NCBI GenBank assembly: GCA_025456085.1
Contig: JALOLF010000003.1
Span: 1 to 64,000 of the forward strand
From: Acidimicrobiales bacterium
Lineage (GTDB): Bacteria; Actinomycetota; Acidimicrobiia; Acidimicrobiales; Acidimicrobilacustridaceae
DNA: 64,000 nt
Direction: 5' to 3'
Part shown: positions 5,716-30,799 of the stretch, in pieces
Layout of the letters: every line of letters begins with the position of its first letter
Position numbering within the stretch: position 1 is the first letter of the stretch
Notes under the pieces: generated by a model
Databases searched by the model: none
Told to the model about the DNA's origin: nothing
Seen by the model: only the letters and a program-made list of their open reading frames with translations
Translations under genes and position numbers: made by a program

Positions 5716-7179
5716 TCACCCCAGGTCCTCTCGGACCATCCCGGCGACGTGGAAGGCCGAGTCGACCGCCTGGTGGGTGCCGGCGCCGCGGCCGCCGGCG
5801 TCGCAGCCCACGAGGTACAGGCCCGGCAGGGGCGTGCGGGGATCGGGTTTGGACGTGCCCACCTGACCGACCACTTGGGCCAGGCCCACCGCCTCGCCGC
5901 CCACGCCTGGCAGCGTGGCGTCACGGGTCATGCGGGAGATGTGGCGCGCCCCGTAGGGCTCGCGACGGATGACGTGGACGCGCCAGCCCGGCCAGACCTC
6001 GTCGAGCACGAGCTCCGAGCGGCGGATGGCCTCGTCGGCCATGGGTGAGCGGGGGTCCGGTGAGGTGAACACCTGGGTCACCGCCACCTGGTGGCCCGGT
6101 ACCGGGGTGAGCGACGGGTCGAACACCGTCGGCACGTCCACGGCCAACATGGGTACGTCGGGCCACTCGCCGCGCTCCATGGCCGCGAAGCGCTCGTCGT
6201 CGAGCCAGCTCTGATCCGAGAACACCGGGATCAGGGCGGCGTCGAACACCTCGGCGTCGAGCACGTAGCGCACGCCGGCGATGGCCCAGCTGGGTTCGAG
6301 CTCCCGCACGCGGGCGACGTAGTCGGCCGGGAAGTGCGTCTCACCGGTGAGTGCCAGCACCGTGGGCTGGATGCCGGCGTTGGACACCACGGCGCGGGCG
6401 GCGAGGAACCCGTCGTCGGTCTCGACGCCGACGGCGCGGCCGCCGTCCACGACGACACGGCGCACCCGGCGCGACGTCGTGAAGGTGCCGCCCTGCTCCA
6501 CCACGTAGTCGGCGCACACCTCGGCCACGCGGCCGTAGCCGCCGACGTGGTAGCGGCCGGTGCCGCCGGTGGCCATCTGGGCCAGGATCAGCGCCGTCTC
6601 CGACGCCGCCAGTCGATCGACGGGCACCACGAACAGCATGTTGAGGATGGCGCACCACTGGCTGAGCAGTGGCGTCGACAGGCCGAAGCCGCGCAGCCAG
6701 TCCAGTGAGCCGATCTCGTCGAGCGCCTCGACGTCGGCGGGCTGCAGCGCCAGCGCGGTCATGAACATCGAGGCCATCGCCTCCAAGTCGGCGTCGGTGG
6801 CACCGAACACCCGGCGCAGGTTGGCGATCTCGGTATCGCTCCCGGTCTGGTGCGCCGGCGACGACATGGCCCGCCACTCGCCGGAGGTCGCCTTGTAGCG
6901 GATGCCGGCCACGTTGTCGCCCTCGGGGATGAGGAACGGTGCCCGCTCGGCGATGCCCAGCGTGTCGACCAGCTCGTGGAACCTCGACCCGGTGGCGGGG
7001 ATGCCCACCGCGCCGAACATCTCGTAGCGGTAGCCCTTGCGGGGCAGCGTCTGCGTCTTGCCGCCGGCGCGCGGGGTCTTGTCGATCAGGGCGACCCGGT
7101 AGCCGGCGTGGGCCAGCAGACCGGCGACGCTGGCGCCGCCGTAGCCGGCACCGATGACGACGACGTCGTGGGACTCCAT
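5716..7179 (-). CDS. FAD-dependent oxidoreductase, phytoene-desaturase-like
   Basis: The 487-residue product starts with a Rossmann dinucleotide-binding motif, VVVIGAGYGGASVAGLLA, followed by the acidic residue of IDK and the GGK motif shared with phytoene desaturases and other carotenoid-type amine-oxidase-fold flavoproteins. A C-terminal PGLYLVGCDAGGRGAGTHQAVDSA segment (about 455-478) is the second FAD contact. The family covers carotenoid desaturases, isomerases and many uncharacterised dehydrogenases; without carotenoid genes nearby the substrate is open. It is the last gene of a likely three-gene minus-strand unit with the kinase-like gene (42 bases apart) and amidohydrolase. Confidence 0.88.
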   Translation of the reverse strand: MESHDVVVIGAGYGGASVAGLLAHAGYRVALIDKTPRAGGKTQTLPRKGYRYEMFGAVGIPATGSRFHELVDTLGIAERAPFLIPEGDNVAGIRYKATSGEWRAMSSPAHQTGSDTEIANLRRVFGATDADLEAMASMFMTALALQPADVEALDEIGSLDWLRGFGLSTPLLSQWCAILNMLFVVPVDRLAASETALILAQMATGGTGRYHVGGYGRVAEVCADYVVEQGGTFTTSRRVRRVVVDGGRAVGVETDDGFLAARAVVSNAGIQPTVLALTGETHFPADYVARVRELEPSWAIAGVRYVLDAEVFDAALIPVFSDQSWLDDERFAAMERGEWPDVPMLAVDVPTVFDPSLTPVPGHQVAVTQVFTSPDPRSPMADEAIRRSELVLDEVWPGWRVHVIRREPYGARHISRMTRDATLPGVGGEAVGLAQVVGQVGTSKPDPRTPLPGLYLVGCDAGGRGAGTHQAVDSAFHVAGMVREDLG

Positions 7180-7221: not shown

Positions 7222-8301
7222 TCAGACCAGGTCGAGGCTCCCCAGGTCGCGCACGGCCTGGCACGATCGGCGGATCATGGTCACGAACATGGCGTCACCC
7301 CGGTCGGTGCGGGTGCCGTAGGCGGCGCCCAGCACGGTGATCAGCGGGCCCTGCAGCATGCCGAACCGATAGTCCTCGAAGCAGGTGTGGGCCGGGTAGT
7401 CGACGACCCCCTGGCGACACAGCTCGTCGTGGTACGTGGCCACGAGATCCTGTTCGTGCACTCGGCGGTGCTCGGCCTCGAGGCCGGTGCCGAGGAAGAA
7501 CGCCAGGTCGCGCGCCGGCAGCCCGAGGGCCAACGTCTGCCAGTCCACCGCGGCGACCTGCGGGTCGTCGCCACCGTGGAACAGCAGGTTGTCGAGGCGG
7601 TAGTCGCCGTGCAGCAGCCCGAACCGCTCCGGGCGGCCCAGCACCCAGCGGTCGACCACCTCGGTCACGGCCCGCAGGGTGGCGAGGTCGTCGTCGTGGA
7701 CCGCGCCGGCGAAGTGCTCGGCGAACTGCTCCACCGCCAGGCCGGTGATGTCGTGCAGCAGGGCCGCTCCGGCGTCGTCCACCAGGGTCAGCGTCTCCAG
7801 CTCGGTCAGCGTGGGATCGCACCAGCGGGGTGCGTGGAGGCCGGCCAGGTTGCGCACCGCGGATCGGGCCTGCGCCACCGTGCACCCCGCGAGCTGGTCG
7901 CCCTGCTCGGCCGGGTGCAGGTCTTCCAGCACCAGCACGAAGGCGGTGCCGTCCTCGCTGCTGGCGGCGTACCAGCAGTGCGGCGTGCGCACCGCCAGCT
8001 CGGTGGCCAGCTCGGTGTAGAAGGCGACCTCGCAGCGGTAGACCCCGGCCACCAGGGCCCGTGCCGCGGGGTCTGCGACGGGGAGCTTCACCACGACGGT
8101 GTCCGGCAGCACGTCCGGTGGCAGCCCGTGGTCCAGGCGGGCGCGGTAGCTCTCGCCCATCTGTCCGGTGCCGATGCGCTCGAGCTCCACCGAGTGCACG
8201 GTCACGCCCGGGGCCACCGGGGCCAGGGCCGCGGTGAACCACGCGGGCGTGAGCTGGTGGTGCTCGGCGACGACGCCGGCGGCGGACGGGTGGACCGCCA
8301 T
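7222..8301 (-). CDS. APH-family (aminoglycoside phosphotransferase-like) kinase
   Basis: The 359-residue product has the protein-kinase-like APH fold. The catalytic loop HGDYRLDN is at 231-238, and the metal-binding Asp253 is in AAVDWQ, followed by LPARDLAFFLG. Actinobacterial members of this kind usually sit with acyl-CoA dehydrogenase and lipid-catabolism genes and are thought to phosphorylate small hydroxylated metabolites rather than antibiotics; its placement between an amidohydrolase and a flavoprotein fits that. The gene lies 22 bases downstream of the amidohydrolase stop and is probably co-transcribed. Resistance should not be inferred from the family name. Confidence 0.88.
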   Translation of the reverse strand: MAVHPSAAGVVAEHHQLTPAWFTAALAPVAPGVTVHSVELERIGTGQMGESYRARLDHGLPPDVLPDTVVVKLPVADPAARALVAGVYRCEVAFYTELATELAVRTPHCWYAASSEDGTAFVLVLEDLHPAEQGDQLAGCTVAQARSAVRNLAGLHAPRWCDPTLTELETLTLVDDAGAALLHDITGLAVEQFAEHFAGAVHDDDLATLRAVTEVVDRWVLGRPERFGLLHGDYRLDNLLFHGGDDPQVAAVDWQTLALGLPARDLAFFLGTGLEAEHRRVHEQDLVATYHDELCRQGVVDYPAHTCFEDYRFGMLQGPLITVLGAAYGTRTDRGDAMFVTMIRRSCQAVRDLGSLDLV

Positions 8302-13997: not shown

Positions 13998-14014
13998 TCG
14001 CGCCCGTCGGATCG

Positions 14015-14794
14015 CTACCGGCCGCCCAGCTGGCGGCGCATGTCCGCCACGCGGGCGCGGAACTCCGGCGTGGTCATCGACCACGCCTGGGCCTCCAGCT
14101 CCACCTCGAAGGCGCGGGCGGGGTCGTCGATGCCCGGCGACGCGTCCAGGACGGTCTTGGCCCGGCGCACCGTGGCCGCCGGTCGACCGGCGGCCCGCCT
14201 GGCCATGCGCATCGCGGCGGGCAGCAGTGCCTGGTGGGGATGGCAGGCCCACGCCAGCCCGATGCGGGCCGCGGTCTCGCCGTCCACGCTCTCGCCGCAC
14301 AGCGACAGCGCAGCCGCGGCCTGCCGACCGACGCGGTCGCGCAGGCGCCACAGGTGGCCGCCGCCGGGGTGGATGCCCAGGTCCAGGAAGCGGGGGTCGA
14401 AACGGGCCGACGGGCTGGCCAGGATGACGTCGCAGGCCAGCGCCAGGTTGACGCCGGCGCCGATGGCGGGGCCGTTGACGGCGGCGATGGTCACCACCGG
14501 TGCTTCGGCGAGCGCCAGGTAGCCGGCGTAGAGGTCGCGCAGCGGGGCTCTCGGCTCCAGCAGCTCTTCGGGGGAGCCGCCGGCGCAGAACACCGGCGGC
14601 GTGGCGGTGAGCACGATGGCCTCGGCGCCGCGATCGAGCGCCTCGGCCACCCGGTCGGCCAGCGCCCGCACCAGGGCGTAGCGCAGCGCGTTGCGGTTGT
14701 CGGGATCGTCGAGGCGCACGACGGCAACCCGGGTGTCGGCGTCGAGGTCCAGGGTGACGAGCTCGCGACCGTCGGGGTCAGGGGTGGCAGCCAA
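14015..14794 (-). CDS. Enoyl-CoA hydratase/isomerase family protein lacking the usual glutamates
   Basis: The 259-residue protein is crotonase-like, with oxyanion motifs FCAGGSPEEL (69-78) and NGPAIGAGVNLALACD (107-122). The position of the first catalytic Glu is Asn116, and the second region reads FDPRFLDLGIHPGGG, without the usual Pro-Glu. It therefore probably is not a classical hydratase and may catalyse a different acyl-CoA reaction. It converges on the aldehyde dehydrogenase (17 bases between stops). A pair of TGAATC-type operator sites lies 37-70 bases upstream, shared with the divergent gene at 14954. Confidence 0.88.
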   Translation of the reverse strand: MAATPDPDGRELVTLDLDADTRVAVVRLDDPDNRNALRYALVRALADRVAEALDRGAEAIVLTATPPVFCAGGSPEELLEPRAPLRDLYAGYLALAEAPVVTIAAVNGPAIGAGVNLALACDVILASPSARFDPRFLDLGIHPGGGHLWRLRDRVGRQAAAALSLCGESVDGETAARIGLAWACHPHQALLPAAMRMARRAAGRPAATVRRAKTVLDASPGIDDPARAFEVELEAQAWSMTTPEFRARVADMRRQLGGR

Positions 14795-14830
14795 GGGTGG
14801 ACCTCCGGTGGGGCGCCGGGAGCGAGGTTC

Positions 14831-14864
14831 TGAATCCCGGTTCGACAGATTGAATCACGTTTCG
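14831..14864. promoter_or_regulatory. Paired TGAACC-N2-GGTTCA-type operator between divergent genes
   Basis: TGAATCCCGGTTCG (14831-14844, 10 of 12 consensus positions) and TGAATCACGTTTCG (14851-14864, 9 of 12) are direct copies exactly 20 bases apart, in the intergenic region between the crotonase start at 14794 (minus) and the NIPSNAP-like gene at 14954 (plus). Confidence 0.6.
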
Positions 14865-14870
14865 AAACAC

Positions 14871-14962
14871 GCGAGGCTGAGCCGATGGGCGACGGGAGGC
14901 GGAGCCGATGAACGACGGGAGGCGGAGCCGATGAACGACGGGAGGCGGAGCCGATGAACGAC
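14871..14962 (+). repeat. Four tandem 23-bp units, each with ribosome-binding site and ATG
   Basis: Units start at 14871 (19 of 23 bases match), 14894, 14917 and 14940 (identical). Each of the identical units contains GGGAGGCGGAG followed by ATGAACGAC. Because 23 is not a multiple of three, successive ATGs (14885, 14908, 14931, 14954) fall in rotating frames. The first three open 8-codon frames (M-G/N-D-G-R-R-S-R) whose TGA overlaps the next ATG as ATGA. The last ATG (14954) begins the real gene. Confidence 0.9.
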
Positions 14963-15691
14963 AAGGTCTACATCCACGAGTTCATCGACATCATCGGGCA
15001 CAACCGCTCGAAGTACCTGCACCACATGACGGCCAACTGGTGTCCGATGGCCCGGGAGGAGCGCAACCAGCTCTGCTTCGGGGTGTGGGGCACGGTGGGT
15101 TCGACCGGTCGGTGGCCCGAGGTGGTGAACCTGTGGGAGCTCGACGGCTGGCAGGGTCTGGCCGACAACTTCGCCCACGAGCTGTCCCACGCGGGGCTGC
15201 AGGATCCGTCGCTGGCGGAGTGGTGGGCTGCCGCGGCGACGCTTCGGCGAGGGGGCTTCGACCGCATCCTCGTGCCCGCGCCCTGGACCCGACCCATCGA
15301 GGAGCTCACCGCGGCGGGGGTGCGGGGGGCGCTCTACGCCCACGAGGTGATCGAGGTGCCGAGCGGCACGGCGCCGGCGCTGCTGGAGCGCGTGGCCGAC
15401 ACGGGCCGGGCCGTCGTCGAGCCGCTGGGTCCGACGCTGATCGGGGCGTTCCGCACCGCCATGGTCAACGACCGGGAGGTGATCCTGTTGTGGGCCATCC
15501 CCGACTGGGAGACCTGGGCGGCCTTCGAGCAGCAGGACCGCGGCGACGGCGCGCTCGGCCCCTGGCGGCAGGCGCTCGTCGAGGCCGGGGCGACGCTGCA
15601 CCGCACGCTGCTGGTCGACGCCCCGCTCAGCCCGTTGCGCCTCGGCCGCCAGCCCGAGATCGGCGACCGACGCCCGCTCGACGAGGTGTGA
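14954..15691 (+). CDS. NIPSNAP-like dimeric alpha/beta-barrel protein
   Basis: The 245-residue protein seems to hold two ferredoxin-like halves: residues 1 to about 110, with VYIHEFIDI, VVNLWELDGWQGLADN and SLAEWW, and about 120-235, with ALYAHEVIEV, VILLWAIPDWETWAAFE and PWRQAL. The repeated W-E or W-D ...W...F pattern resembles NIPSNAP/ABM-type proteins found near actinobacterial lipid and steroid degradation genes; their biochemical role is unknown. Its start is the fourth ATG of a tandem 23-bp array that also duplicates the ribosome-binding site. Its stop is only three bases from that of the convergent crotonase gene. Confidence 0.65.
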   Translation: MNDKVYIHEFIDIIGHNRSKYLHHMTANWCPMAREERNQLCFGVWGTVGSTGRWPEVVNLWELDGWQGLADNFAHELSHAGLQDPSLAEWWAAAATLRRGGFDRILVPAPWTRPIEELTAAGVRGALYAHEVIEVPSGTAPALLERVADTGRAVVEPLGPTLIGAFRTAMVNDREVILLWAIPDWETWAAFEQQDRGDGALGPWRQALVEAGATLHRTLLVDAPLSPLRLGRQPEIGDRRPLDEV

Positions 15692-15694
15692 CGG

Positions 15695-16516
15695 TCAGAG
15701 CCGGCCGTCGATGCGCAGGTCCTCGGAGACCCAGGCGGGGGAGCGGCGTTCCTTGAAGGCCACGAACCCCTCGACCGGCTCAGGGCCGTAGAGGCTGGCA
15801 TCCATGGACATGCGGTCGTAGCGGCCGTAGAAGTCGTTGATGACCCGCTTCACGTCGCGGCGGGCATCGGGCGCGGTCCGGCAGCACCACTCGAGCGCAT
15901 CGGTGGCGGCGGCGAGCAGCTCGTCGTGGGGGACGGCGCGGGTGACCACGCCCCACTCGACGGCCTCGGCCGCGGCGAGCACCCGGCCGGTCAGCATCAG
16001 GTCGCGTGCCCGGGCGGGGCCGACCTGGCGGGGCAGGATCTGGCCGTAGTGGGTGTCGGCGATGCCGCGGAACAGCTCCGGGGCCCGGAACGTGGCCCGA
16101 TCGCTGGCCACCGACACGTCCGACAGCATGGCGATCATCAGGCCACCGCCCTGGGCGATGCCGTTGACCGCGCACACCACCGGCTTGCGGGAGTCGCGGA
16201 TGGCGTCGAAGGGCGTGACGTCCATGTGCAGCAGTCGTCCCAGATCGGCCCAGTCGTCGGGGCTGGCGCCGCCGAGGTCACCGCCGGGGATGAACACGTC
16301 GCCGGTGCCGGTGATGAGCAGCCCTGCCAGGTCGGGGTCGGTGTTCACGTGGTTCACGGCGTAGCGCACGCCGAAGTACATGGCCGGCGTCATGGCGTTG
16401 CGGGCCTCGGGCCGGTCCACGATGCAGTGACCGAGTGAGCCGTGGCGCTCGAAGCGCAGGTAGGGCGTACCCAGCCAGTCGCCCTCGGGTGGGCGGGGCT
16501 GCGGGTGCTCGGTCAT
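15695..16516 (-). CDS. Enoyl-CoA hydratase/isomerase family protein
   Basis: The 273-residue crotonase has an N-terminal extension of about 18 residues, then oxyanion segments FIPGGDLGGAS and NGIAQGGGLMIAMLSD, and FRAPELFRGIADTHYG. The first catalytic Glu is replaced by Met, while the second (in APE) is kept, so hydratase activity is uncertain. Family members with only the second Glu include isomerases and hydrolases. It is divergent from the TetR gene at 16598, and a paired TGAACC-type site occupies the 81 bases between them, so it is a likely direct target of that regulator. Confidence 0.88.
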   Translation of the reverse strand: MTEHPQPRPPEGDWLGTPYLRFERHGSLGHCIVDRPEARNAMTPAMYFGVRYAVNHVNTDPDLAGLLITGTGDVFIPGGDLGGASPDDWADLGRLLHMDVTPFDAIRDSRKPVVCAVNGIAQGGGLMIAMLSDVSVASDRATFRAPELFRGIADTHYGQILPRQVGPARARDLMLTGRVLAAAEAVEWGVVTRAVPHDELLAAATDALEWCCRTAPDARRDVKRVINDFYGRYDRMSMDASLYGPEPVEGFVAFKERRSPAWVSEDLRIDGRL

Positions 16517-16597: not shown

Positions 16598-17263
16598 GTG
16601 GCGAAGGCGAAGCAGGAGGACGCGCCCGGTCGTCGCGAGCTGCGGCGGCAACAACAGCAGGACCTGAGCCGCCAACAGCTCCTCGACGCCGCGGAGGAGG
16701 TGTTCAGCCTCAAGGGCTACCACGACGCCACGCTGAAGGAGATCGCGGACGTGGCCGAGTTCTCGGTGGGCTCGGTGTACTCGTTCTTCGAGAACAAGGA
16801 CGACCTGTTCTTCTCGGTGTTCCTGCGGCGAGGCGACCAGCTCCTGCCGGCCATGCGCGACGTGCTCGAGGGGGAGGGCGCGCCCCTCGAGCAGCTCCAT
16901 GCGCTCATCGACCTCCAGATCGGCTTCTTCCGTCAGCACGCGCTCTTCGCCCGGTTGTTCCTGCGCACCTCCAGCACCGTGTCGTTGTCGACCGAGCGGC
17001 CGGTCGACCAGGTGATGCGCACCCGCTTCACCGAGGCCATGGACCTGGAGGCGGACCTGTTCGCCCGGGGGCAGGCCGCGGGTCAGTTCCGTGATGGCGC
17101 GCCCCACGTGCTGTCGCTGCTGTTCTCGAACCTGATCTCGGCCTATCAGGCCACCGATCCCGAGATCATGGGCAGCGACGTCGACGGCGAACCCCTGCCG
17201 CTCGCCGCGCTCCACGACCTCGTCGAGGCGGCGTTCGTGGCCCCGGGCGTCCGGCGGCGCTGA
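16598..17263 (+). CDS. TetR-family transcriptional regulator
   Basis: The 221-residue regulator has a charged Gln-rich leader and then a TetR helix-turn-helix (about 26-72) with LLDAAEEVFSLKGYHDATLK, the recognition helix in FSVGSVYSFFENKDDLFF, and a helical ligand domain. The GTG start at 16598 follows AAGGAGG. It lies between a divergent crotonase and the nine-gene acyl-CoA operon beginning 63 bases after its stop; both flanking promoters carry the paired TGAACC-type element. It is therefore the best candidate for the protein that binds this element, with an acyl-CoA as the likely inducer. That assignment is inference from position. Confidence 0.92.
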   Translation: MAKAKQEDAPGRRELRRQQQQDLSRQQLLDAAEEVFSLKGYHDATLKEIADVAEFSVGSVYSFFENKDDLFFSVFLRRGDQLLPAMRDVLEGEGAPLEQLHALIDLQIGFFRQHALFARLFLRTSSTVSLSTERPVDQVMRTRFTEAMDLEADLFARGQAAGQFRDGAPHVLSLLFSNLISAYQATDPEIMGSDVDGEPLPLAALHDLVEAAFVAPGVRRR

Positions 17264-30765: not shown

Positions 30766-30799
30766 TGAACCACGGTTCAATCCGTTGTGATCTAGTTCA
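30766..30799. promoter_or_regulatory. Paired TGAACC-N2-GGTTCA operator upstream of the amidohydrolase-Rieske-P450 unit
   Basis: TGAACCACGGTTCA (30766-30779) is the only complete match (12 of 12) of this element in the window. A second GTTCA half-site (30795-30799; 14-mer at 30786-30799 matches 7 of 12) starts exactly 20 bases further. On the minus strand TAGATC inside the second copy could be a -10. Confidence 0.65.

Follow-up and report, generated by a model that had tools for sequence, protein, structure and literature searches.

Results

The window, the whole stretch of 64,000 nucleotides analysed here, carries at 14871-14962 a head-to-tail array of four 23-bp units that runs into the first codons of a gene at 14954-15691. 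The upstream neighbour is a divergent, enoyl-CoA hydratase-like gene (14015-14794). The coordinates of the array were confirmed to the base. TRF placed it at 14869-14962 with a period of 23, 4.1 copies, 94% matches and a score of 160, the highest of any tandem repeat in the window (the runner-up scored 84), and shuffles of the window gave zero expected matches to the unit at up to three mismatches. Units 2-4 are identical. Unit 1 has diverged at 4 of the 23 sites, yet it retains GAGG, ATG and an open frame. By sequence and by TRF, the four units, their positions, the three identical copies and the peptides of the mini-ORFs are all as the preliminary description had given them. It should be noted that the source genome, that of an uncultured actinobacterium, is a draft of 279 contigs, and the four-unit copy number is therefore the assembler's consensus. 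No Rfam family was matched within 14000-16000 of the window. The features of the array and of the gene that follows are:

14871-14893, + strand: unit 1, GCGAGGCTGAGCCGATGGGCGAC, with four substitutions relative to units 2-4; Shine-Dalgarno GAGG at 14873-14876
14894-14916, + strand: unit 2, GGGAGGCGGAGCCGATGAACGAC; Shine-Dalgarno GGGAGG at 14894-14899, ATG at 14908
14917-14939, + strand: unit 3, GGGAGGCGGAGCCGATGAACGAC, same as unit 2; ATG at 14931
14940-14962, + strand: unit 4, GGGAGGCGGAGCCGATGAACGAC, the gene's own Shine-Dalgarno, ATG and codons 1-3, with the start set by homologues
14885-14911, + strand: mini-ORF 1, MGDGRRSR and stop
14908-14934, + strand: mini-ORF 2, MNDGRRSR and stop
14931-14957, + strand: mini-ORF 3, MNDGRRSR and stop; this TGA stop and the gene's ATG at 14954 overlap
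14954-15691, + strand: downstream gene in an acyl-CoA catabolic cluster; encodes a NIPSNAP-like tandem alpha+beta-barrel protein of 245 aa

Each mini-ORF has eight codons and is closed by the TGA within the next ATGA (14908, 14931 and 14954). The arrangement is of the bicistronic type in two respects: the Shine-Dalgarno sequence of the next ORF (GGGAGG) lies inside the leader ORF, at codons 3-5 of each mini-ORF, and the leader stop overlaps the next start. Homologous proteins begin (V/M)-N-(D/T/S)-(K/R)-V-Y-x-H-E at the position matching 14954. On the evidence of these N-termini the real start is fixed at 14954, where it had been placed before, and the unit therefore consists of the gene's own Shine-Dalgarno sequence, start codon and first three codons. 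In-frame initiation at an upstream ATG was considered and is ruled out by stops; 14885 lies in the frame of 14954 and is stopped at 14909-14911. Stop/start overlaps of the form ATGA or TGATG are the classical geometry of translational coupling (PMC12548453), which makes the proposed step-by-step re-initiation along the chain plausible.

The naming of the downstream product as NIPSNAP-like holds as a distant likeness only: 17 of 23 homologues weakly match the Pfam family PF07978 (NIPSNAP), with a best E of 1.5e-5, and the window protein itself, at 16.4 bits, falls under the gathering score of 22.3. The AlphaFold model of the 245-aa protein is confident (pLDDT 92.9), and the predicted fold is similar to that of tandem alpha+beta-barrel proteins, among them 2pgc and coproheme decarboxylase.

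Two homologue searches yielded 46 distinct loci besides the window (15 contigs were common to both), and the 44 that include the upstream region and the start formed the comparison set. The array was found in none of these 44 loci, where the best self-similarity within 130 bp upstream was at most 9, as against 59 for the window. No further copy of the unit, at up to three mismatches, was found in the 4.85 Mb of its own genome. Because it is absent from the 44 loci and the unit is unique in the genome, the array is a duplication of the gene's initiation region that is local and specific to its lineage. A dispersed repeat element was also considered and is ruled out by the same uniqueness. The suggestion that the array expanded recently fits both the absence from the homologous loci and the three identical units, and the divergent unit 1 points to an expansion in at least two steps. 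The array is known from one genome only.

The linkage of the mini-ORFs was examined separately. The chaining of three eight-codon ORFs by ATGA follows from the unit length of 23, which is 2 mod 3, and from the ATGA with which the gene opens. Whenever a unit of length 2 mod 3 is repeated in front of a gene starting ATGA or GTGA, the upstream frame is closed at the following start; 45 of 53 homologues have A as their fourth base. When random segments around the starts of the homologues were duplicated in silico, overlapping stop/start pairs arose in 27% of cases and N-terminal extensions in 31%. Since 27% of the simulated duplications yield it, the ATGA linkage is a one-in-four by-product and not in itself evidence of function; as a sign of design it is unsupported.

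A pair of operator-like sites lies between the divergent genes, 7 bp before the array, and a candidate regulator is encoded further downstream:

14831-14844, + strand: operator-like site 1, TGAATCCCGGTTCG, TetR-type half-palindrome TGAAYCnnGnTTCR
14851-14864, + strand: operator-like site 2, TGAATCACGTTTCG, a copy of TGAAYCnnGnTTCR 20 bp after site 1
16598-17263, + strand: TetR-family regulator gene, candidate regulator for the operator-like sites

The motif occurs at five sites in the 4.85-Mb genome, and its reversed control at none. The remaining sites, at 30766-30779 of the window and on two other contigs (G000:C127:1951 and G000:C195:1649; L074 and L075), adjoin the starts of catabolic genes whose identities, read from translations, are acyl-CoA dehydrogenase, thiamine-pyrophosphate-enzyme, AMP-dependent ligase and amidohydrolase genes. 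Seven distinct homologues carry a looser form of the motif at -78 to -123, and a TetR-family gene also neighbours the homologue in L032 and L041. As an observation in its own right, the palindromes probably mark a regulon of acyl-CoA catabolism under TetR-type control, whose regulator may be encoded at 16598-17263. Because a TetR-type operator would overlap the promoter, transcription is expected to start before the array, and the array is probably a transcribed mRNA leader. No consensus sigma-70 promoter or terminator was found in 14600-15100, although this consensus is uninformative for actinobacteria.

The strength of the ribosome-binding sites was calculated with the canonical 16S tail as anti-Shine-Dalgarno, the genome's own 16S rRNA being absent from the draft. 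Good sites precede all four starts. The duplex of units 2-4 (-11.1 kcal/mol) is stronger than that of unit 1 (-8.0 kcal/mol), and it is the strongest when set against 52 homologue starts (median -8.5). The leader was then folded in silico, and the energies that follow are predictions that are uncertain on GC-rich leaders. One segment of the coding region is of importance here:

14980-14997, + strand: coding segment GTTCATCGACATCATCGG, complementary to CCGATGAAC in each unit and predicted to pair with upstream copies

In the predicted fold the pairing partners of this segment are the copies at 14908 and 14931, not the real start. The predicted energy of opening the main start is about 9 kcal/mol when four units are present and rises to about 13 for three and 15-16 for two; truncation is non-monotonic, as a single unit gives 11-17 kcal/mol, varying with the ends chosen. 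Shuffled leaders of equal length need 14.1 +/- 2.3 kcal/mol, only 2% of them being as low as the native one, while the minimum free energy of the leader is ordinary (z -1.1). Against the array collapsed to one unit, the native form shows a mean opening difference of -9.9 kcal/mol (native more open). These predictions suggest that the extra copies could unmask the real start. The native leader was the more open one in 8 of 10 arrays. A structural decoy as a general rule was rejected, since two phage arrays, L085 and L188, run the opposite way.

Similar arrays were sought in other genomes. Among 395 genomes of the class, searched for GGAGG-N8-ATGA pairs at most 32 bp apart, a tandem was found in the window genome only, and the five other matches were chance pairs. 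When three signals in a row were sought in 396 genomes of the phylum, two further true arrays before real genes emerged. The first (L326, G532:C32:16916-16964) lies in another actinobacterium between two genes whose apparent products are the alpha and beta subunits of 2-oxoacid dehydrogenase E1; its 17-bp unit makes three M-A-E-A-V mini-ORFs chained by TGATG. The second (L330, G489:C111:28315-28406) has a 38-bp unit with two 12-codon mini-ORFs, MTKVKPKCRRAA, likewise chained by TGATG, and lies between two genes reading like FAD-dependent oxidoreductases; it shares family f98 with L326. Scans of viral contigs revealed chains before ORFs of 75-398 codons, with units of 41 bp (L085), 29 bp (L144), 32 bp (L188), 38 bp (L241 and L243) and 20 bp (L248), and also arrays with a unit length of 1 mod 3 (L168 and L203). 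The phage array L203 (about 8138-8183) has 16-bp units whose starts read ATGTGA, a start and then a stop, and stands before a 270-codon ORF. In L188 (about 6934-7090) five start-region units, which come in a 33-bp and a 32-bp kind, precede a repeat-rich, tail-fibre-like phage gene whose relatives are too distant for a comparison of copy number.

The arrays L085, L144, L188, L241, L248, L326 and L330 resemble that of the window in having tandem Shine-Dalgarno and ATG, units of 2 mod 3 and ATGA or TGATG links, followed by a real gene, whereas the genes and the unit sequences (17-41 bp) are unrelated. In L241, L326 and L330 the array sits at a gene-gene junction, while the gene upstream of the window array is divergent. 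Tandem copying of the initiation region is thus rare, yet it is repeated and independent. Before ORFs of at least 75 codons, and with the window excluded, there are eight distinct arrays of 2 mod 3 against two to four of 1 mod 3; a selection for 2 mod 3 units is suggestive only (one-sided binomial about 0.06-0.19).

Among IMG/VR relatives of the L241 gene, L280-L283 (98% protein identity) have one 38-bp unit and L278 and L279 have three, which is direct evidence, at a phage locus, for gain or loss of units within this class of array. In the single-unit form the upstream gene already ends in the ATGA of the start, and the phage expansion therefore put two mini-ORFs into a pre-existing coupled junction. 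Copy-number variants of the L241 array were also sought in phage records and E. coli genomes, with no match.

Discussion

The present analysis indicates how a gene could acquire leader ORFs by copying its own start. Slipped-strand or unequal duplication may have copied the 23-bp initiation region three extra times in the 5' leader of a regulated catabolic gene. Ribosomes could then load at any of the four Shine-Dalgarno sites and be passed along the chain by termination and re-initiation, and the extra copies would keep inhibitory mRNA structure off the real start. In the reading that we favour (probability roughly 0.55) the array is a natural, multi-step 'bicistronic' leader made by slippage, most likely with a modest positive or a neutral effect on initiation. 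It is inferred that the array is transcribed, that its mini-ORFs are translated, that ribosomes re-initiate and that expression is affected.

It is also possible, albeit on balance improbable, that the array is a neutral product of slippage, tolerated because coupling keeps the gene translated, and has no selected role and no net effect. Absence from all the homologous loci examined would be expected in that case, as would a chain geometry that simulated duplications produce as a by-product 27% of the time, and the phage sisters live with either one or three units. Against neutrality, if not strongly, unit 1 has kept GAGG, ATG and the frame in spite of four changes in 23 sites, and in 98% of the shuffled leaders the main start is predicted to be less open than in the native one.

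A bolder generalisation would make start-codon tandem arrays an unrecognised, recurrent class of evolvable leader, in which slippage makes coupled mini-ORF chains (2 mod 3, ATGA or TGATG) that are kept because every additional unit offers ribosomes one more landing pad and exposes the real start, the unit number tuning the gene in phages and bacteria alike. We regard this as doubtful at present. Less credible still is tuning at the window array itself, suggested in the preliminary description and read here as a contingency locus, where frequent changes of unit number in the population would set the expression level of the gene. Three identical units, and a similar phage array with one unit in four 98%-identity sisters and three in two others, could be taken as signs of such tuning. 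However, with its 92 bp in 23-bp units the array would mutate far less readily than simple-sequence contingency loci do, and the gene resembles housekeeping catabolism and not a surface antigen, so that a tuner of this kind is unlikely.

Repression is very unlikely. Mini-ORFs could trap ribosomes on the upstream starts, as do the inhibitory minigenes before Bacillus subtilis ycbK and E. coli baxA and argF (reviewed in PMC8708949). In the window array, however, each stop overlaps a next start with a full Shine-Dalgarno sequence, a geometry that favours re-initiation, and the structure predicted for the leader is to the advantage of the real start. The direct repeats, close to a promoter and with operator-like sites 7 bp upstream, might instead work as DNA, as iterated binding sites to which the mini-ORFs are incidental; we give this little credence, since the unit copies the gene's Shine-Dalgarno, start and first codons, is absent at the other operator sites and in the rest of the genome, and has a period of 23 that is no multiple of the helical turn. 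An artefact of assembling a draft, metagenome-type genome of 279 contigs is the least probable of all, because the 92-bp array is shorter than ordinary reads and is anchored by the differing unit 1.

If the chain of the favoured reading works, it would be a natural, serial counterpart of the bicistronic designs of synthetic biology, and slippage alone could create leader ORFs and alter translation while leaving the protein untouched. The recurrence in unrelated phage and bacterial genes, together with one versus three units in near-identical phages, makes the effect of unit number testable. Such loci also present gene finders with several equally good start codons.

Comparison with known systems

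It is accepted that short ORFs can supply a coupled gene with ribosomes (PMC12548453; PMC4833913), and leader ORFs that aid re-initiation are reported to be common in Actinobacteria (PMC4833913). Minigenes may act in either direction (PMC8708949). The actinobacterial leader genes (PMC4833913) and the axe-txe minigene (PMC8708949) have in common with the window array a very short ORF near the gene start and an effect in cis on translation, but they are single ORFs of unrelated sequence, whereas the window shows a tandem duplication of the initiation region. Wording such as duplicated ribosome-binding site was not found in the open-access literature searched, by which absence is not proven.

Mycobacterial interspersed repetitive units (MIRUs) form small ORFs at start codons with -4 nt (ATGA) coupling, and tandem 77-bp MIRUs lie between senX3 and regX3, where their make-up differs among strains (PMC12548453; PMC4213456). 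Both MIRUs and the window array place a short repeat beside a start codon, with a small ORF coupled by a -4 nt overlap and tandem copies, and the mini-ORF chain does overlap the downstream gene by such an ATGA. MIRUs, however, are dispersed, seemingly mobile and 53-77 bp long, whereas the window unit has 23 bp, occurs at a single locus and duplicates the start of the gene itself. The window array would work much as tandem MIRUs do, but as no dispersed copies exist in the 4.85 Mb (up to three mismatches), it is not a MIRU by the defining test of dispersion.

The bicistronic design (BCD) is reportedly that of Mutalik et al. 2013. It shares with the window array a fore-cistron with an embedded Shine-Dalgarno sequence and a stop that overlaps the target start, and the clearing of structure at the real start by leader translation, known for the BCD, is what is proposed for the window. 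The BCD is engineered, with one fore-cistron and TAATG, while the window array is natural, with three in series linked by ATGA, which are copies of the target's own start. A BCD has been used in Corynebacterium glutamicum (PMC10367133). MIRU is the nearest natural system and the bicistronic design the nearest engineered one; the window array is a new form of the known coupled leader ORFs, and the wider class of start-codon tandem arrays is a lead.
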